Positions 5,318-21,962 of a DNA stretch of 64,000 nt are shown here, piece after piece. Source of the stretch: Bacteroidales bacterium (lineage in GTDB: Bacteria > Bacteroidota > Bacteroidia > Bacteroidales > UBA932); NCBI GenBank assembly GCA_017620335.1, contig JAFZQO010000049.1:165751-229750 (forward strand), in the 5' to 3' direction. The notes below the pieces were generated by a model. It ran no database searches, was not told the origin of the DNA, and saw only the letters and a list, made by a program, of their open reading frames with translations. Made by a program: the position numbers and the translations under genes. How positions within the stretch are numbered: position 1 is the stretch's first letter; each line of letters opens with the position of its first letter.

Positions 5318-7213
5318 ATGGCCAGGACAAGCAGACCGGACAGCATTTACAGGGTGTCCCTGCACCGCAACGCGGGGCATACATACGCGGCTACGCACCC
5401 ATTTACCCTTGACGAAAACGGCAGGAGAAGATACAGCGTCCAACATTGGGGAACGGTGACGGAAGACCTCCGTTTCATCCCCGGGAAGCGGTATCTGGAA
5501 GCGTCGGAGGAAGAGAGGCGAAGGCTGGTCTTCCCTGAAGGGTGGGATCTGTCCGCGGCAGAAAGGGCGGGCGCGCCGGGGGCGGGAGCCGCAGGCTCGG
5601 CCGCCCCACCGCGCCCGCTCCCCTGCACCCCAACTGACTCCGGCAAAGCCTTCGGCGACGTCTGGCTCCTGGAGCAGATCGTCGGCTGGTCCGGCGTGCG
5701 CGAGGACCTCTGCGAGGCCCTCGGCGACGCCGCCCGCGCCGACGACCTCCTCACCCTCGCCTACTACCCTTTCCTTACCGGGACATCATTCCTCCGTTTC
5801 CCCCGCTGGCAAGCCGCCACCAAAGTACCGTCCGATCGTCCCTTGGACGCGATGCTGACGGAATCTCTCGCCTCAGTCAGCCGCACAGCGTTCCACCGCT
5901 TCATGGACCTTCGACTCAGGCGGCACCACGGAGAACGGCTTGTCGCTGTCGACTCCGTCACGCGCCACTCCTCCGGCGAAGCGGTCTCCGACCGCAAATG
6001 GGGCCAGAAGACTGAACGCATCCATTTCCAGTCCACGGTAGAAGCCGTCGCATACTCCCTGGACACCCATATTCCGGTAGTCTATACCTCTTTCCCTGAA
6101 GTGGTTACGGACTCCAGGGGAATGGGCGTATTCCGCTCAGAGCTCGCCAAGGCAGGACTGGAAGGAATCACCGTCGTCACCGACAGGGGATACGATTCCC
6201 TGCAAAGCCTGGAGGGCTATTTCCAGGACGGGCCGATGGTCATGTGCGTCGACGTGAAGCAGCCGGCCGTGCTCGAGCGGATCCGGGCCTTCGGCCGGTT
6301 CCGCGAGCACCCGGCCGGCATGCGCTACGACGCCACCTCCCGCCGCTGGTACCGCCAGTACCCCCTCGCCCCTTCCCTCCTCCTCAACCTCTTCTTCAAC
6401 CCCGAACGCCGTGCCGCCGAACTCGCTCAGATCGACGCCGAGATCGCCTCCCAACAAGCCGCCCTCCGGGAAATCTCCGACTATGGTATCACCATCTCCG
6501 ACCGCCGCTCCCTCCGTCGCGACCACTACTTCTTCAAGGCTTCTTATAATCCTGACACCCAGACCGTTACCTCCTTCTCCCCCGACAAGCGCCGCATCCT
6601 GGACACCCGTGCCGCCTCCGGCTTCTACGCCAACGTCACCTCCGGCCTCGACATCTCCCCCCTCGAAGCCGTCTCCATTTACAGCCTCAAATACGACCAG
6701 GAAAAGTTCCTCCGCCAGTTCCGCTCCCTCCTGTATTTCCCCCAGCGCCTTCCCATCTCCGGCAACATCCGCTTCGGCATCCAGCTCCTCCAATACATCG
6801 GCCTCCTCCTCAACACCCGCCTCCGCCACTCCCTCCAGCACCCAGCCCTGAACGCCCCCCAGCTTTCTGCCCAGCACCACTTCAGGAACTCCCCTACCAC
6901 ATACACCTTACCCACCAAGTCCGATTTTTCGCCCTCCATTTCCCCCAGTTCCGCCCTCTCCTCTGCCTTCCAGCCCGGTTCTGCTCTCCACTCCCCCGCT
7001 GGATCCTCCATCCCCTCCGGTTCACCCCTCCAACCCCATTCCAGTTCTCCCTCCCCGGGCTCCTCTCTCCCCCTCCGCAGCCTGACCGAAGCCCTGGACG
7101 AGCTCCACAACATCCCCTGCGCCAACGCCGGCGACTGCACCTGTGCCCTCGGCCCCCTCACCCCCCTCCAGCAGCATCTCCTCCGCATCCTTCTACCTCC
7201 GGTCGAAGGATGA
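5318..7213 (+). CDS. IS1634/IS4-type DDE transposase
   Basis: A 631-residue transposase with the IS4-superfamily catalytic pattern: Asp212 (AVDSVT), Asp289 (VVTDRGYD) and the Y-2-K-3-E-6-R helix around Tyr455-Glu462 (YSLKYDQE). The long beta-rich insertion between the second Asp and the Glu is usual for this family. By family it catalyses cut-and-paste movement of its own element. Residues about 515-590 form a Ser/Pro-rich low-complexity insertion, after which a normal-looking C-terminus resumes (LTEALDELHNI, LTPLQQHLLRIL). The last codons (PPVEG, stop) are written by the first copy of the 52-bp hairpin repeat, so the repeat supplies the stop. I could not find convincing terminal inverted repeats of an IS around it, so only the gene is called. 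Confidence 0.85.
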   Translation: MARTSRPDSIYRVSLHRNAGHTYAATHPFTLDENGRRRYSVQHWGTVTEDLRFIPGKRYLEASEEERRRLVFPEGWDLSAAERAGAPGAGAAGSAAPPRPLPCTPTDSGKAFGDVWLLEQIVGWSGVREDLCEALGDAARADDLLTLAYYPFLTGTSFLRFPRWQAATKVPSDRPLDAMLTESLASVSRTAFHRFMDLRLRRHHGERLVAVDSVTRHSSGEAVSDRKWGQKTERIHFQSTVEAVAYSLDTHIPVVYTSFPEVVTDSRGMGVFRSELAKAGLEGITVVTDRGYDSLQSLEGYFQDGPMVMCVDVKQPAVLERIRAFGRFREHPAGMRYDATSRRWYRQYPLAPSLLLNLFFNPERRAAELAQIDAEIASQQAALREISDYGITISDRRSLRRDHYFFKASYNPDTQTVTSFSPDKRRILDTRAASGFYANVTSGLDISPLEAVSIYSLKYDQEKFLRQFRSLLYFPQRLPISGNIRFGIQLLQYIGLLLNTRLRHSLQHPALNAPQLSAQHHFRNSPTTYTLPTKSDFSPSISPSSALSSAFQPGSALHSPAGSSIPSGSPLQPHSSSPSPGSSLPLRSLTEALDELHNIPCANAGDCTCALGPLTPLQQHLLRILLPPVEG

Positions 7214-7360
7214 TGCCACTTTCACCCAAAACACCCACTTCCTTCTACCACAGGTCGAAGGATAACCGCCATTTCCCCCAAAAAACCTCCACGTCCTTCT
7301 ACCACAGGTCGAAGGATAACCGCCCTTTCTGCCAAAACCCCCGTATCCTTCTCTAGAAGT
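7187..7360. repeat. 52-bp hairpin-repeat array (copy 1)
   Basis: Four starts of CCTTCTACC at 7189, 7241, 7295 and 7347 are spaced 52, 54 and 52 bases. The first three continue to GGTCGAAGGAT; the fourth breaks off. Each full copy can fold as TCCTTC-t-ACC, a 3-base loop, GGT-c-GAAGGA. The loops here are tcc, aca, aca. Between copies lies a pyrimidine- and A-rich stretch. The first copy overlaps the 3' end of the transposase gene. Confidence 0.85.
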
Positions 7361-7382
7361 AAGCGATGCCTGGAGCGGAAAT

Positions 7383-7469
7383 GTCACTGACGGTCCAATG
7401 GCTGGACCGGAAGGAGCGAAAAGGGTAGTGAATTGTCACTGACGGTCCAATGGCTGGACCGGAAGGAAC
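7383..7469. repeat. Two-hairpin palindromic (REP/BIME-like) unit 1
   Basis: Two hairpins with stem CGGTCCA/TGGACCG (7391-7409 and 7443-7461), both with loop atggc, are separated by a 33-base spacer. The outer arms are CTGA on the left and GAAGGA on the right. It has the same architecture as the units flanking the RAYT gene at 16.6-17.6 kb, in the opposite orientation to most of them. Confidence 0.85.
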
Positions 7470-7548
7470 ACCGCAGGTCCAAGGATAATGCCCCCACCAC
7501 ATTGAGGCCCCTCCATGAAACAGCAGCACTACAGAAATATCCCCTGCA

Positions 7549-8806: not shown

Positions 8807-8856
8807 CGAAGGACGTGACGGTTCTGCCCAAAAGAGCGTTATCCTTCGATCTCCAG

Positions 8857-8945
8857 TGTTCCTTCCGGTCCAACTACTGGACCGGAAGTGACATTTTACC
8901 CCACTATTTGCTCTTTCCGGTCCAATGGGTGGACCGGAAGGAGCA
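8857..8945. repeat. Two-hairpin palindromic unit 2
   Basis: Stem TTCCGGTCCA/TGGACCGGAA at 8863-8887 (loop actac) and at 8915-8939 (loop atggg), joined by a spacer with ATTTTACCCC and TTTGCTC. Both stems are a full 10 bp. Confidence 0.88.
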
Positions 8946-9091
8946 TTTCCGCTCCCGGCATTCCCTATTTCGCCACCGCTTCCTTATAGAGAAGGATGTG
9001 GCGGTTTCTGCCCGAAAGGGCAGTATCCTTCTACCTGAAGTCGAAGGACGTGACGGTTCTGCCCTAAAGAGCGTTATCCTTCGACCTCCAG

Positions 9092-9180
9092 TGTTCCTTC
9101 CGGTCCAACTACTGGACCGGAAGTGACATTTTACCCCACTATTTGCTCCTTCCGGTCCACCCATTGGACCGGAAGGAGCA
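9092..9180. repeat. Two-hairpin palindromic unit 3
   Basis: Same unit in the second copy of the 235-bp duplication: hairpins 9098-9122 (loop actac) and 9150-9174 (loop cccat). The first hairpin is identical to unit 2 and the second differs in the loop. Confidence 0.88.
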
Positions 9181-9274
9181 TTTCCGCTCCCGGCATCCCC
9201 TTTTTCGCCACCGCTTCCTTATAGAGAAGGATGTGGGGGTTTCAGCCAATAAAGACAGTATCCTTCTACCAAAG

Positions 9275-9392
9275 GTCGAAGGATGCAGCGGGTTTTGTCC
9301 GAAAGGGAGTCATCTTTCTACCGAAGGTCGAAGGATGTGGCAGTTTTTGTCCGAAAGGGCGTCATCCTTCTACCGCAGGTCGAAGGATGCGG
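9275..9392. repeat. 52-bp hairpin-repeat array (copy 3)
   Basis: CGAAGGATG starts at 9277, 9329 and 9381, period 52. The core hairpin loops are gaa and gca. The inter-hairpin part carries GTCCGAAAGGGC, itself able to fold. The array stops about 20 bases before the end of the convergent dehydrogenase gene. Confidence 0.85.
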
Positions 9393-15122: not shown

Positions 15123-16406
15123 TCAGTCGCGCTTGAAGATGTCGCGCGTATAGACCTTGTCGGCAACGTCGTCGAGGACGGGGTCGTAGCGGTTGGCGAT
15201 GATGGCGTCGCTCATCGCCTTGAAGCGCTCCAGGTCGCCGACGACGAGGCTTCCGAAGAAGGTGCTGCCGTCCGGCAGCGAAGGCTCGAAGACGACGACG
15301 CGGGCGCCCTTGGCCTTGATGCGCTTCATGATGCCCTGGATGGCGCTCTGGCGGAAGTTGTCCGAGCCGGCCTTCATCGTGAGGCGGTAGACGCCGACCG
15401 TGACGTCGCGCTCGCGCGTGGAGTCATAGGCACTTGAAGCGGTGTAGTACCCAGCCTTGTCGAGGACGCGGTCGGCGATGTAATCCTTGCGCGTGCGGTT
15501 GCTTTCGACGATGGCCTTGATGAGGTTCTCGGGGACGTCGTTGAAGTTTGCCAGCAGCTGCTTGGTGTCCTTCGGAAGGCAGTATCCACCGTAGCCGAAG
15601 CTGGGGTTGTTGTAATGCGAGCCTATGCGCGGGTCACCGCAGACACCTTCGATAATCGCCTGGGTGTCAAGACCTTTCATTTCGGAGTAAGTGTCCAGCT
15701 CGTTGAAATAGCTGACTCGGAGGGCCAGGTAGGTATTGGCGAAGAGCTTGACCGCCTCGGCCTCCGTGGAGCCCATGAGGAGGACGGGGACGTCGGGCGC
15801 CAGCGCCGCCTCCTTCAGGAGAGCGGCGAAGCGCCCCGCGTCCTCCCGCGGCGTCCCGTCGTACCCGACGATGATTCGCGACGGATACAGATTGTCATAC
15901 AGGGCTTTGGATTCGCGGAGGAATTCCGGCGAAAAGAGAATCTTCGGCGTCACGACCCGCATCGTCCCGTCGGCCAGGCGCTCGCGGTAGCTGAATCTTT
16001 CTCGGGCCGACCTGGTGTATCCTACGGGAACGGTCGACTTGATGATCATCACAGCGTCGGGATTAACCTCCAGGACCGTCTCGATGACCTCTTCCACATG
16101 GGAAGTGTCGAAGAAATTCTTCTTCGGATCGTAGTTGGTGGGGGCGGCGATGACGACGAAGTCGGCATCGCGGTACGCGGCGCGGCCGTCGAGCGTCGCC
16201 TTCAGGCGCAGCTCGACCGGCCTCCCGGCCGCGTCCCGCCCCGCCAGATATTTCTCTATATACTCATCGGCAATCGGCGATTCCCGCCGGTTGACCTTCT
16301 CGACCTTCTCAGCGACTACATCCACCGCCACAACGTCATTGCGCTGCGACAGCAGCGTTGCCATGCTCATCCCCACGTACCCCATTCCCGCAACTGCAAT
16401 CTTCAT
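15123..16406 (-). CDS. ugd: UDP-glucose 6-dehydrogenase (copy 1)
   Basis: A 427-residue cytoplasmic enzyme that oxidises UDP-glucose to UDP-glucuronate with two NAD, a precursor for capsule and exopolysaccharide. It has an N-terminal Rossmann domain ([13 protein letters not shown]), a central helix region with [14 protein letters not shown], the catalytic Cys in [10 protein letters not shown], and a C-terminal UDP-binding domain ([29 protein letters not shown]). The ATG at 16406 starts directly at MKIAVAG, which is better than the alternative four codons upstream. It carries a roughly 10-residue insertion ([14 protein letters not shown]) and another near residue 145 that the paralogue at 59820-61013 lacks. 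It has its own promoter and terminator, so it is probably monocistronic. Confidence 0.92.
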
Positions 16407-16459
16407 GTTTCCAATCATTTATTGGTTATTCCTTTCCCCTCACATCATTGCCACACTCG

Positions 16460-16491
16460 CAAAAATACTCATTAGCGCCCTAATTAACAAA
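16460..16491 (-). promoter_or_regulatory. Promoter of ugd copy 1
   Basis: On the minus strand TTTG (16488-16491), 20 bases, TATTTTTG (16460-16467), about 55 bases before the start codon. Confidence 0.5.
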
Positions 16492-16520
16492 CATCCAATC
16501 CCTCTTGAACTCCGCCTAAG

Positions 16521-16610
16521 TGTTCCTTCCGGTCCATCGGCTGGACCGTCAGTTGCATTTTCCCACCATTTTCGCTCTTTCCGGTCCACCGGCTGGACCG
16601 TCAGTAACAC
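16521..16610. repeat. Two-hairpin palindromic unit 4 (downstream flank of RAYT)
   Basis: Hairpins 16530-16548 (loop tcggc) and 16582-16600 (loop ccggc), stems CGGTCCA/TGGACCG, with outer arms TTCC on the left and GTCAG on the right. The spacer has ATTTTCCCACCATTTTCGCTC. The unit ends 10 bases from the stop codon of the RAYT gene. Confidence 0.9.
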
Positions 16611-16619
16611 CGACGACTT

Positions 16620-17558
16620 TTATCCCCGATCCAGGTATTTAGCGGCCGCATCATAACTGAGGCCTGTCACCCTTGCAAGCTGGTTCGCCCCCGCTGAGAA
16701 ACGGAACCGAAGTTGTCGTAACAGTTCCAGCATTTGGTCTTCCGTCAGTTCCTCTACCGAACGCTTCCGGAACAGAGACTGGCACAGATCCGGAACTGCC
16801 GCCAATATTACTTGGTCCCGGAATGCCGGCAGGTCTGATTCTTTCATCTCCAAACGTTGCTTCGCCTTGGAAGAATTATGCAGGAAGAAGCTCATCCGTT
16901 TCGGAGTCCTGAACGCCTCCTCGACGATGTCTTTCCGTACAAACGAGTCCGGAAGGATATAGCCGGCATCGCATACCACCCAATTCTGCGGCAACATTAT
17001 ACGGCTGTGAAGAATCCTTGCCTGCTCCCGATCCGATACCGCCTTGAGGGGACGTCCGCGCTCCGTTACTCCACCACCGAAAGCGACACCGTCACCATTT
17101 TGGTATCTAAGGTCTATGTTCGGTGCGACGTCGTCATGCTTCAGATTTGGGCGGAAAAAAGTACGTCCGGTACCCCAGGGATAATCGAACGGGCTCACGC
17201 AAATGTTTGCGGCAACAGGATTCATCTGTATATATGCAATTGCCCACTCCAAAGCCTCATCCCCATGAATAGGCTTGATATCCACTTTCAGACGACGAAG
17301 ATGTTCCCTGCTTCCGTACTTTTTCCAAAGATATCTCGAATAGGCGGTCTTAAAACCCTGAATGAATGCTTCCGCCTTCTCCCTGCGGCAAAACAGAGAC
17401 AGATGAATATGGTTGGACATCAGTATGAAAGCAAGTACGAAAACCCCGCACTTGAAAGCTTGTACCGCCACATAGTTCATTCCAACGATGAAGTCTTCCA
17501 AATCCCTGAACAAGAGGCGGTCTTCCAAATGTTCAGTAGTAACCAGCCAATAAGCCAT
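16620..17558 (-). CDS. REP-associated tyrosine transposase (RAYT, Y1_Tnp/HUH family)
   Basis: A 312-residue protein with an N-terminal Y1 transposase domain. The metal-binding HUH motif is His50-Ile-His52 (LMSNHIHLSLF) and the catalytic Tyr is most likely Tyr109 in IAYIQMNPVAANI, the YIxxNP form usual in RAYTs. The C-terminal part (about 230-312; LSYDAAAKYLDR) looks like a DNA-binding helical domain. RAYTs nick and rejoin single-stranded REP hairpins and are thought to spread them without moving as classic IS elements. The context fits: a two-hairpin unit ends 10 bases after the stop, another lies 270 bases upstream, and related units recur across the window. A TATATTTG box lies at 17736-17743 on the minus strand, but without a clear -33. 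Confidence 0.85.
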   Translation of the reverse strand: MAYWLVTTEHLEDRLLFRDLEDFIVGMNYVAVQAFKCGVFVLAFILMSNHIHLSLFCRREKAEAFIQGFKTAYSRYLWKKYGSREHLRRLKVDIKPIHGDEALEWAIAYIQMNPVAANICVSPFDYPWGTGRTFFRPNLKHDDVAPNIDLRYQNGDGVAFGGGVTERGRPLKAVSDREQARILHSRIMLPQNWVVCDAGYILPDSFVRKDIVEEAFRTPKRMSFFLHNSSKAKQRLEMKESDLPAFRDQVILAAVPDLCQSLFRKRSVEELTEDQMLELLRQLRFRFSAGANQLARVTGLSYDAAAKYLDRG

Positions 17559-17829
17559 AGTTTAAGTTATTTATCAATAAGGAAGCAGTTTTTCCGAACT
17601 CCTCCACCACTGTGAGAACCAGCCAATCAGCATGAAGGCATCAGGTCTCACCATTCTCTCAAAGGGCACCAGCCAAAGAACAAGGAAAGTGGCACCCATG
17701 GCATCCACGCTGGTCGTTTGCGTCGAACACCTTCACAAATATATGAAAACTGATTGGTATAATTGTTATCTTTCTTTACCGTTTTTTCTCCCTCTGAAAC
17801 TCTCTAAATCTATGTTTTTACGACTATAC

Positions 17830-17919
17830 TGTTCTTTCCGGTCCATCGGCTGGACCGGAAGGAACAATTTACCCATGTTTTCGCTCCTGACGGTCCAACG
17901 CGTGGACCGGAAAGAACAC
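17830..17919. repeat. Two-hairpin palindromic unit 5 (upstream flank of RAYT)
   Basis: Hairpin 17831-17865 has a 15-bp stem (GTTCTTTCCGGTCCA with one G-T pair, loop tcggc). The second, 17891-17909, has loop acgcg and flanks CTGA/GAAAGAAC. The outer ends TGTTCTTTCC and GGAAAGAACA are inverted repeats of each other, so the whole unit is itself palindromic. Confidence 0.9.
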
Positions 17920-18063
17920 CTTGAGGAGATTAAGGCAGCGTGGGAAAAAAAGGGAAAGAGGGAGGAAGGAGTTCGGAGAGGATTGGGAGAGGAGAGTTGA
18001 GAAAAGGGCTGGGAGAAAGAGGCTGGAGAAGAGGGACGGGGAGGATGGGATAAATTCTATGAC

Positions 18064-18135
18064 AGGTAGTCGAAGGATGAGGGTGTTTTCGCCCAAAAGG
18101 GCGGTGTCCTTCTACCGAAGGTCGAAGGATACGGG
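18064..18135. repeat. 52-bp hairpin repeat (copy 4)
   Basis: CGAAGGAT starts at 18071 and 18123, period 52, with the internal GCCCAAAAGGGC hairpin and a full TCCTTCTACC-gaa-GGTCGAAGGA hairpin at the second position. It lies just after the 3' end of the endonuclease gene. The rest of 17559-18161 holds palindromic unit 5 and no gene that I can support. Confidence 0.8.
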
Positions 18136-18161
18136 GGTGTGGCGCGGGGGGAAGGGGGAGA

Positions 18162-19013
18162 TTAGGGAAGGAGGAGGTCCAGGACGATGGGCCAGTGGTC
18201 GCTGATGCGGGGGACGCCGTAACCGTCGGTGACCATGCGGTAGGAGACGGGCGTGAGGCCATTGACGAAGAAGTGGTCGATGGCGCCGTGGCTTTCGGAC
18301 TTGGTGAAATTGGCGAAGGTGTCGGTTTCGGGCACGGCGAGCATCGCGCGCGCGGACTGCATCTGCAGTCCCGCGGCCTCGATGCTCCGCAGGCCCGTGT
18401 TCCAGTCACCGCAGGCGAGGTCGTGCCCTGTCAGCTGCCCATTGACTTGACGCACAGTGCGTTCCACGATTTCCCGTTCCCAGCGGGAATGGACGTTGAT
18501 GACGCGGATGCCCTCAACGGTGCAGGCCTCCCAGAAGATTGCGAAGGAATGTTTCGATGTCTGCATCGTGTCGCGCACGAAGATCGGATGGCTTACCCCG
18601 ATGCCCACGCGGCGGTACCCGTCGGGTACGTACCGCGCCACCGGCGGCAGGACTTCCTGCAGGCAAATGACGTCGGGATTGACGTCAACGATCATCCGGG
18701 TCATCGCCTCCATCCGCCTGCGCCAGTAGTACTCCCCCGTTTCGTCGCGGTCGCGGGTCCATTCGCGCACGTTGAAGGAGAGGACCCGCAGGCTCCGCCC
18801 GGGGAGGGTGGAGGAAGAAGGGGCGGCGGCAGAAGGAGCGGCGGAGTGCGCAAAAGAAGCGGTTTTGCGCACGGAGGCCGCGGCGGGGGTGGCAGAGCGG
18901 AGGGAGGTGGCGGAGGCGCGGAGGGGGGCACCGTCAGCGCAGGGCGCGAGGAGGATGGCGGCCCAGAACAATACCAGGACAAAAGTTAAGGGGAATGCAG
19001 AGAGGAGTCTCAT
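18162..19013 (-). CDS. Endonuclease/exonuclease/phosphatase-family protein, exported
   Basis: A 283-residue protein with an N-terminal membrane or signal segment (MRLLSAFPLTFVLVLFWAAI), a low-complexity linker (about 25-70), then the metal-dependent EEP domain: LSFNVREW, ICLQEV (catalytic Glu), NVHSRWE, CGDWNTG (Asp/Asn) and ISDHWPIVL (Asp-His). Family members hydrolyse phosphodiester bonds in DNA, lipids or phosphoinositides; export points to an extracytoplasmic nuclease or phosphodiesterase. The ATG at 19013 overlaps the upstream stop as ATGA, which fixes the start. The linker contains the in-frame hairpin repeat at 18846-18872 (VRKTASFAH). Confidence 0.82.
   Translation of the reverse strand: MRLLSAFPLTFVLVLFWAAILLAPCADGAPLRASATSLRSATPAAASVRKTASFAHSAAPSAAAPSSSTLPGRSLRVLSFNVREWTRDRDETGEYYWRRRMEAMTRMIVDVNPDVICLQEVLPPVARYVPDGYRRVGIGVSHPIFVRDTMQTSKHSFAIFWEACTVEGIRVINVHSRWEREIVERTVRQVNGQLTGHDLACGDWNTGLRSIEAAGLQMQSARAMLAVPETDTFANFTKSESHGAIDHFFVNGLTPVSYRMVTDGYGVPRISDHWPIVLDLLLP
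18846..18872 (-). repeat. In-frame hairpin repeat inside the endonuclease gene
   Basis: GTGCGCAAAA and TTTTGCGCAC form a perfect 10-bp inverted repeat with a 7-base loop. The minus-strand sequence closely matches the intergenic hairpins at 8286-8415 (read there as VCETASFAHA, here as VRKTASFAHS). It sits in the linker between the signal segment and the catalytic domain. Confidence 0.75.
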
Positions 19014-20711: not shown

Positions 20712-20724
20712 ATCTTAAAGTTCC

Positions 20725-20812
20725 GTTCTTTCCGGTCCAGCGTCTGGACCGTCAGTGTCATTTCACCCCCATTTATGCTCCTTCCGGTCCACCCGCTGGA
20801 CCGTCAGTTACA
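20725..20812. repeat. Two-hairpin palindromic unit 6
   Basis: Hairpins 20733-20751 (loop gcgtc) and 20785-20803 (loop cccgc), both followed by TCAG. The right edge of the unit provides the stop codon of the phosphodiesterase gene. Confidence 0.88.
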
Positions 20813-21962
20813 TCTTTCCTTGTATTACGCGGCCGGCGTGGAGCTTATTGCTGGTGACGCCGGAGATGTATGGAGGCAGTTCCAGGATGATATCGGCAGA
20901 ATCGATCGTCCAGACTTCGAGCGGGAAGCCGGCATCCTTGCAAAGGGAGGCGGCTTCGTCGCTGAAGTCTGATGAAGAAACGAAGACCTTGGTCACATCT
21001 GTCGCAAGTTTCCTGAGCCCATCGGCCTTTCCCAGCACACCCTCGTCGACCCGTACGGTCAGAAAGCCGACACAAGCGTCGGGATCTTCAGCCAGGACAT
21101 ATTCAAGGAGTGAAGGGAAGAACGAAATATACTTCGCCAGACCCTTCAACCCGTACTTCTCGACAAGCGCGACTACCCCGGCGATATCGCTGGAATTCCC
21201 CGCCTTCAGCTCGATATAGGGAATCAAACCAATTGACTGACAAAGCCCTAGGAATTCTTCCAGGGTCGGTATTCCCGTTCTGGAGAAACGCTCCCCTTTC
21301 CACGAGCCAAAATCCAATTCGCGCAGATGCGCCAAGGTCATTTCCTTGACCGCGCCGCTGCCATTCGAGGTCCGGTCAACGGTGGCGTCATGGATGCAGA
21401 CCGGCACGCCGTCCGCTGTGAAATGCACGTCCGTCTCGGCGTAGGTGAAGCCCTCGAGCCGAGACATACGGTACGCCGGCAATGTGTTCTCAGGCGCGAC
21501 CGCACTGAAGCCACGGTGATTCACACCTCGCATAACCGAGTCGTAATCAAAACTATAGACAGCCTTAAGCAAAGAAACTTGCCCGTCCGGGAAGTAGAAC
21601 GTCCAGTCCTTATAGCCCTCGACGACACTCTCTATGCTTGCCGCCGCATCCCGTCCTTCACACTCATCAAGAGACCTTTCACTCCTTTCCCCGTTCACAT
21701 ACCAAAATCCATCCAGACCGATCCGCACGAAAGGACAGTCGGCATCCTTTATCGTGAACGTCTCACCATCAGACAGTTTGAATTTCAGTTGCCCTTTCTT
21801 TTCGTTCACCTCGGACACGCTGACCCCGCGGGCCGCCGCCGACTCCACCACCACGCGCGCACGCTCCACCGTATCGGCAAACGGCTCCTGCGCCTCAAGT
21901 TTCGAGCAGGAGCAGAACAGCACAAGTGCAAAAGAAATCAGTATCCAACGTAAATCAACCAT
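20808..21962 (-). CDS. Glycerophosphodiester phosphodiesterase lipoprotein
   Basis: A 384-residue lipoprotein (ISFALVLFCSCS). Residues about 25-135 are a beta-rich domain of a type often attached to Bacteroidales lipoproteins; residues about 145-384 are the GDPD domain: NHRGFSAVAPENTLPAY (catalytic His), ETDVHFTADGVPVCIHD (metal acids and second His), PYIELKAG (Glu) and the closing W in EVWTID. It cleaves glycerophosphodiesters to glycerol-3-phosphate and an alcohol, here outside the cytoplasm. The stop codon lies in palindromic unit 6. Confidence 0.88.
   Translation of the reverse strand: MVDLRWILISFALVLFCSCSKLEAQEPFADTVERARVVVESAAARGVSVSEVNEKKGQLKFKLSDGETFTIKDADCPFVRIGLDGFWYVNGERSERSLDECEGRDAAASIESVVEGYKDWTFYFPDGQVSLLKAVYSFDYDSVMRGVNHRGFSAVAPENTLPAYRMSRLEGFTYAETDVHFTADGVPVCIHDATVDRTSNGSGAVKEMTLAHLRELDFGSWKGERFSRTGIPTLEEFLGLCQSIGLIPYIELKAGNSSDIAGVVALVEKYGLKGLAKYISFFPSLLEYVLAEDPDACVGFLTVRVDEGVLGKADGLRKLATDVTKVFVSSSDFSDEAASLCKDAGFPLEVWTIDSADIILELPPYISGVTSNKLHAGRVIQGKM

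Follow-up and report, generated by a model that had tools for sequence, protein, structure and literature searches.

RAYTs are domesticated transposases. The RAYT or TnpAREP proteins of Pseudomonas, E. coli and Stenotrophomonas have REP or REPIN repeats as their partners (available sections of PMC3116915 and PMC8266576). In the three RAYT-REP pairs tested biochemically, the GTAG foot and the bulge or loop were the main determinants, while the stem played a lesser part (PMC8266576, sections available). The accessible text of Quentin 2018 distinguishes two further groups that are relevant here: subclass 2.6, consisting of Bacteroidetes TnpAY1 proteins (median 179 aa, without a distal C-terminal domain) with atypical, non-GTAG flanking hairpins and copies of these elsewhere in the genome, and subclass 2.1, which has a helix-turn-helix C-terminus and for which no REP-like repeats were found (PMC6006769). 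Among the TIRYT of Di Nocera 2013, some have terminal repeats that recur and are partly self-complementary, and a GGGGWSAS terminal motif is given for them (PMC3733652, in part). RAYT genes of Chryseobacterium are mentioned in the available portion of PMC11194056 without a palindrome or hairpin being described there.

We analysed a stretch of 64,000 nt from a Bacteroidales bacterium (the window), which carries a RAYT-like gene between two-hairpin units, and compared it with these systems as far as the accessible parts of the sources describe them. Like RAYT/TnpAREP systems, it has an HUH/Y1 protein with a Y---NP motif, adjoining palindromic repeats that are dispersed as doublets, a separate repeat family for each protein and doublets that can be folded in two ways; unlike them, it has no GTAG foot, an extra C-terminal domain of ~150 aa and ten genes in one genome. 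Family identity lies in the stem here, as opposed to the GTAG foot, bulge or loop of the pairs in PMC8266576, and this sequence pattern suggests a different way of reading the repeat. The arrangement of two palindromes and a spacer, with a pitch of 50-53 and alternative folds together or apart, is that of a REPIN. With 312 aa and a C-terminal domain common to its close homologs the window protein is unlike subclass 2.6, a group into which shorter relatives with single long hairpins fit as "atypical" (PMC6006769). It resembles subclass 2.1 and the TIRYT in being a long HUH/Y1 protein with a C-terminal domain (helix-turn-helix-like or DnaA-like in those groups; PMC6006769, PMC3733652), but differs in having REP-like repeats and a fixed two-hairpin frame where they have GGGGWSAS termini. 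Judged by the sequence features compared, the family combines traits of subclasses 2.6 and 2.1 and fits neither. The HUH/Y1 core and the hairpins at the element ends are shared with IS200/IS605 transposases (as these appear in PMC6006769, PMC3733652, PMC3116915 and PMC8266576); the lack of near-identical gene copies in the source genome and the weak match to solved transposase structures set the family apart from them. A search of titles and abstracts of open-licence papers found no two-domain RAYT with fixed-pitch doublets. The original prediction of a little-described REP family is supported, with one correction: Bacteroidetes RAYTs with atypical hairpins were already known (Quentin 2018, subclass 2.6), and what seems to be new is that the protein has two domains, that the two hairpins keep a fixed frame and that so many protein-repeat pairs are private.

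The gene (16620..17558, minus strand) was assigned from its open reading frame and from NCBIfam and Pfam matches as a RAYT-like HUH/Y1 transposase gene of 312 aa without an internal stop. Its HUH motif, NHIH, occupies residues 49-52 (17403..17414, minus strand), and the predicted catalytic tyrosine is Y109 (17232..17234, minus strand) in the motif YIQMNP. H50, H52 and Y109 are identical in 97/97 aligned genes, the window's included, and N113 of the Y---NP context is present in 95% of the 97. The matches to NCBIfam REP_Tyr_transpos (E 1.8e-7, 31 bits of 80) and to Pfam Y1_Tnp (E 7.7e-4, 20 bits of 23) both lie below the curated cut-offs; 18 of 25 family members reached E 0.1 or better against the RAYT model, the best 2.9e-13. 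Solved transposase structures matched the window protein only weakly in sequence (E 0.1 to 0.8). With a RAYT-like protein, albeit at that below-cut-off E of 1.8e-7, and with repeats that are dispersed, the assignment to a REP/RAYT-type system was upheld. The C-terminal domain (residues 167-312; 16623..17060, minus strand), with a possible helix-turn-helix near its end, is conserved in close full-length homologs, and a Pfam search of it returned no significant domain. Matches to HTH_23 (E 0.03) in one of 25 members and to an Xre-like helix-turn-helix (0.026) in another were not significant, and none was found in the C-terminal parts of five members; we set the helix-turn-helix assignment aside because the matches were not significant.

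The hairpin motif GGTCCA-N5-TGGACC has 12 exact occurrences in the window, forming six pairs 52 bp apart. When up to two mismatches were allowed there were 13 matches, against 2.2 +/- 1.4 in shuffled sequences (largest 6). Each pair belongs to a unit ~95 nt long whose hairpin centres are separated by 52 bp. A covariance model built from 18 sequences, two of the six window units (those flanking the gene) among them, was run over every window position and recovered the six units on both strands, with E values of 2.5e-20 to 2.6e-9 on the better strand and up to 3.9e-8 on the weaker; beyond these six, the next-best match had an E of 0.32. One unit lies directly downstream of the gene (16518..16612; E 2e-12 on the plus strand and 8.7e-13 on the minus), and it was placed on the plus strand from its linker, the model scoring both strands nearly equal. 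Another lies upstream (17827..17921; E 7.2e-17), on the plus strand by its linker as the downstream unit is, and the gene thus sits between two units of the same orientation. The gene had been predicted to be bracketed in this way at distances of 10 nt and 270 nt: both units are there, and the distances are corrected to 7 nt from the stop codon and 268 nt before the ATG. Four more units are dispersed at 7379..7473 (minus strand, E 3.3e-12), 8854..8948 (plus, 1.7e-19), 9089..9183 (plus, 2.5e-20; a near-copy of the previous one, flanks included) and 20721..20815 (plus from the linker; 3.9e-8 on the plus strand, 2.6e-9 on the minus). Pattern and covariance model thus agree on six units, as the claim of recurrence in the window had it. 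As single-stranded DNA all six fold better than shuffled sequences (z -4.8 to -11.5); three are predicted to form separate hairpins and three one long hairpin, which are the two folds proposed for REPINs in the available text of PMC3116915. The units at 8854-8948 and 9089-9183 are inside a longer direct duplication, 235 bp apart, and their flanks are similar to the flanks found at some other family units. A direct-repeat reading based on 4-nt tags (GGAA or GTCA) beside the stem was dropped, since the tag orientations are mixed within the family, and no polarity is drawn from them.

The source genome is a draft of 2.76 Mb in 54 contigs (96.6% complete, 4.1% contaminated). It contains 33 exact GGTCCA hairpins versus 2 for the reversed control pattern, and related genes at ten loci at E 0.01 or better (counted from 14 rows). 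The other nine genes are at most 54% identical to the window gene. The 54%-identical paralog, on a different contig, is bracketed by GGTCCA hairpins but with a different stem base, and the 33 hairpins divide accordingly: 25 agree with the window gene's flanks in stem base and 52-bp pitch, seven agree with this paralog's flanks in stem base and 51-bp pitch, and one is unrelated. A 32%-identical paralog has an unrelated stem, with GGGAATGAAA hairpins on both sides. From these flanks a second repeat family was predicted, and the GGGAATGAAA hairpin indeed occurs 16 times in this genome; none of 60 relatives has it, and the reversed control gave 0. Beside more distant paralogs the hairpins are arranged differently, or none could be seen. 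Unit copy numbers are modest.

For a wider view we assembled 168 homologous genes: 97 distinct genes from genus genomes and 80 named loci, with 9 duplicates removed. The named loci are the best 80 of at least 478 confirmed relatives, and their query alignment was a closer subset, the first one having been too diverse; nearly all of their records are titled Bacteroidales or Bacteroidia, many being from rumen or other fore-stomach samples, and one is labelled Clostridia. Among hairpin pairs beside the 168 genes with centres 20-99 nt apart, the distance was 50-53 in 60 of 90 downstream (260 nt) and in 37 of 94 upstream (700 nt). Counted per 260-nt stretch, doublets were found in 49/168 downstream and 24/168 upstream stretches, compared with 12/993 distal stretches of the same loci and 0/168 shuffled ones. 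Overall 61 of the 168 genes have a doublet under the search rule, and the gene-flanking doublet pattern is a claim for a large minority of genes. Upstream and downstream flanks have a 7-mer hairpin stem in common at 19 of 96 loci, versus 0.055% of 9120 cross-locus pairs. In some relatives tandem arrays of at least three hairpins with a 50-53 bp pitch adjoin the gene (L177:37 onwards, and the flanks of L134 and L026).

Alignment of 50 downstream units on their hairpin centres separated a constant frame from a variable stem. The frame consists of AGTG at -20 to -17 (0.40-0.91 bits per position), G at -8, CC at -5 and -4, an A/T-G/C-A/T linker between CA and TG, and a further CA behind the second hairpin; the outer feet of the doublet are inverted. 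Positions -16 to -9 are variable (0.04-0.43 bits). In short, TG...CA stem bases and G..CC tips are conserved, and ~8 bp of each stem vary between families; we call this segment the address. A GTAG or GTRG foot is absent from the repeat, the foot consensus being AGTG instead. Eighteen 52-bp units gave a gap-free alignment over 95 columns with 91.5% of stem cells paired, a value that is partly built in by the choice of units as palindromes.

The closeness of the units to the gene (in 13 genes with a downstream doublet the first hairpin begins 1-65 nt past the stop codon) would also suit regulatory or termination hairpins which the protein binds as operators, in autoregulation, the dispersed copies being by-products. 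The placement of the window units is in keeping with this: they are located between open reading frames taken as genes, although several are also overlapped by short or antisense frames of the mechanical list, and the unit at 20721-20815, within a 96-bp gap between two frames, overlaps the 3' end of the frame at 20808-21962 by 8 nt. We regard this explanation as improbable. The intrinsic-terminator pattern was found 0 times in 16400-18200, where shuffled sequences gave a mean of 2.6, and the catalytic residues, which a repressor would not need, are fully conserved; it also leaves unexplained the address-matched dispersed copies and the one unit-sized presence/absence difference described below.

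Among the 60 genes with doublets, stem similarity follows protein similarity (Mantel r 0.59, p 0.001). A stem similarity of at least 0.8 was reached by 6/6 protein pairs at 80% identity or more (all within four orthologs), 2/5 at 70-80%, 3/27 at 60-70% and 5/1332 at 40-60%. We then matched dispersed units to gene-flank addresses: 66 were examined (54 among the matches listed and 12 further), 14 were dropped as having no rule-defined doublet, and 52 were scored. For 28.25 of the 52, with ties split, the nearest address belonged to a gene of the same genome; 2000 permutations gave 5.4 on average and never more than 12.7. When the match was at least 13/14 the same-genome gene was among the best in 27 of 28 cases and uniquely so in 22, the exception being one G017 unit that matched genes of G003 and G011 at 14/14; at 12/14 or better it was included in only 31 of 44. 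The two protein domains behave differently in this respect. In 49 close-clade genes (those of the 60 doublet genes whose proteins share 38% identity or more with that of the window, after manual removal of four; pairs at 80% or above were excluded), the N-terminal domain tracks the address after correction for the C-terminal domain (partial r 0.27, p 0.001), while the C-terminal domain does not (partial r 0.035, p 0.25). Two further analyses were set aside: a per-residue search for address-determining positions, whose correlations were at most 0.22 and had no permutation control, and a comparison of dispersed units within frames of at least 150 codons (26/54) with random places (563/812), which is a weak test of gene avoidance.

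Shared ancestry by itself might produce such matches if gene flanks and dispersed units had been duplicated together, with no recognition of the stem by the protein. Some dispersed units are indeed no more than a few kb from a gene, and two of the window units belong to a longer duplication. Yet the hairpins of two paralog families, 7 and 25 in number, remain separate within a single genome, and stem similarity follows the catalytic domain and not the C-terminal domain of the same genes, which makes this account highly improbable in our judgement.

Across 61 genomes the bare hairpin and the whole unit gave different pictures. GGTCCA-N5-TGGACC had been proposed as the key to the family; we rejected it as a marker, as it is a frequent tip of the shared frame: two RAYTs of the source genome share the tip, and other genomes carry it with different stem bases. 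The bare hairpin occurs in 15 of the 61 genomes. It is frequent in four (33, 19, 20 and 40 copies in G000, G003, G005 and G011), the copies read in G003 and G005 having other stem bases, and in the remaining 11, one of them outside the genus, it is at control level with 1-4 copies (reversed control there up to 5). The unit model, by comparison, matched in 23 of the 61 genomes, all within the genus, in a scan in which both strands were counted, at most 69 candidates were scored per genome and some matching genomes had supplied training units. With the original homolog cut of E 1e-5, units were present in 23/33 genus genomes with a homolog; they were found in 0/4 genus genomes without one and in 0/24 genomes outside the genus, likewise without a homolog, in line with the expectation that the whole unit is confined to genomes with the transposase. 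For close-clade homologs, the reverse case of a transposase without hairpins did not arise in the whole-unit check: with a close-clade cut (E 1e-28 or better) that was chosen after the data had been seen, units were present in 18/18 genus genomes with such a homolog versus 5/19 others (Fisher p 2.4e-6). The five are G014, G026, G028, G032 and G034, of which G032 is 91% complete and the others 70-87%.

In an order-wide sample, scanned with at most six candidates scored per genome, 117 of 393 genomes had a profile match. Among the matches listed, full-length ones were confined to one genus (its three sampled members), and those outside it were mostly limited to the N-terminal part, the open frames commonly having about 190-260 codons. 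In other families of the order, several shorter relatives (~190-200 aa) have single long hairpins at their flanks and no 52-bp doublets.

Differences between related genomes bear on mobility. In two species (L174 and L156) a stop codon and the start codon that follows it enclose a unit of ~90 nt (TG to CA) some 1.6 kb upstream of the gene; in a third (L176) the orthologous interval is 7 nt without a unit, and both flanks align. At a second site, a 130-nt difference between CTAG repeats equals a unit plus about 37 nt, and since part of the additional sequence is also present in L291, a deletion is equally likely. A third site lacked contiguous flanks. At a fourth (L210:1055-1149, on G003:C41) the flank homology with related genomes breaks at or near the unit edges and the neighbouring genes are rearranged. 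A clean presence/absence was thus seen at one of the four sites examined. Units differ between species, whether through gain or through loss. From their position at such breaks, units may act as recombination points.

Gene and flanking units could alternatively make up an autonomous insertion sequence of the IS200/IS605 kind, with the dispersed units as decayed, MITE-like copies left by internal deletion. The position of the gene between two equally oriented units fits this, as does the nearest relative found (72% identical), which has a similar stem and in which, within 5.9 kb, alignment to the window is limited to the gene and units; in addition, homology ends inside the downstream unit in one of four close orthologs (L061). 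Synteny is nonetheless kept on both sides in the other three of the four, internal unit length is fixed where deletions would be ragged, and the divergence of the other nine genes of the genome leaves no near-identical copy such as an active element would give. We consider an insertion sequence of this kind decidedly improbable.

The reading that we prefer, and hold to be quite probable, is a RAYT/REPIN system of distinct form whose HUH/Y1 protein would act in trans on the ~90-nt two-hairpin units. Its repeats are not canonical REPs by the GTAG criterion; they are REPIN-like on most of the genomic tests made. The protein would be a single-strand DNA nickase-ligase working in trans on units scattered in its own genome, and a dimer would hold a unit by both its hairpins, in the manner of IS200/IS605 transposases with their left and right ends. 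Nicking and rejoining at the outer edges while the DNA is single-stranded would allow units to be copied, moved or lost. On this model the protein would bind, nick and move the units, the constant frame (AGTG foot, TG...CA base, G..CC tip and linker) would replace the GTAG guide and its positioning, and the ~8-bp stem address would be read mainly by the catalytic domain; the C-terminal domain might aid dimerising, DNA binding or replication targeting. Counted against a RAYT/REPIN system is a 52-bp-pitch family, TCCTTCTACC-N3-GGTCGAAGGA, that is found in the window without a matching gene. A more far-reaching proposal is a natural address code: one genus with many HUH nickases, each reading an ~8-bp stem in a constant two-hairpin frame, with the catalytic domain as address reader and the C-terminal domain reading or clamping the constant parts. 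We put this forward tentatively, as possible but rather doubtful.

One genus would here offer many protein-repeat pairs built on the same scaffold, in which only a short stretch of the stem varies. The numerous divergent genes, a considerable fraction of which have their own form of the repeat next to them, suggest a natural set of enzyme-and-address pairs. The co-evolution of enzyme and repeat and a direct reading of the stem become testable by comparison and swap experiments. If the address code is real, several hundred public homologs would let it be derived from gene-unit pairs, and it could be used to retarget single-strand nickases.

Two other hairpin families were noted in the window. 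The TCCTTCTACC-N3-GGTCGAAGGA palindrome, with a T-C mismatch in its stem, is present at 7188-7316, 9261-9387 and 18107-18129, and the genome contains 39 copies of it (23 forward and 16 reverse; control 0), often in tandem at a 52-bp pitch and near GGTCCA units. None was seen close to the ten RAYT paralogs, the nearest copies being 571 and 877 nt from two of them. From 8336 to about 8420 lies a GTGTGCG/GTGTGTG hairpin doublet with a pitch of 51.5 bp, which resembles the hairpins beside a RAYT paralog of the same genome (L020, contig C36).
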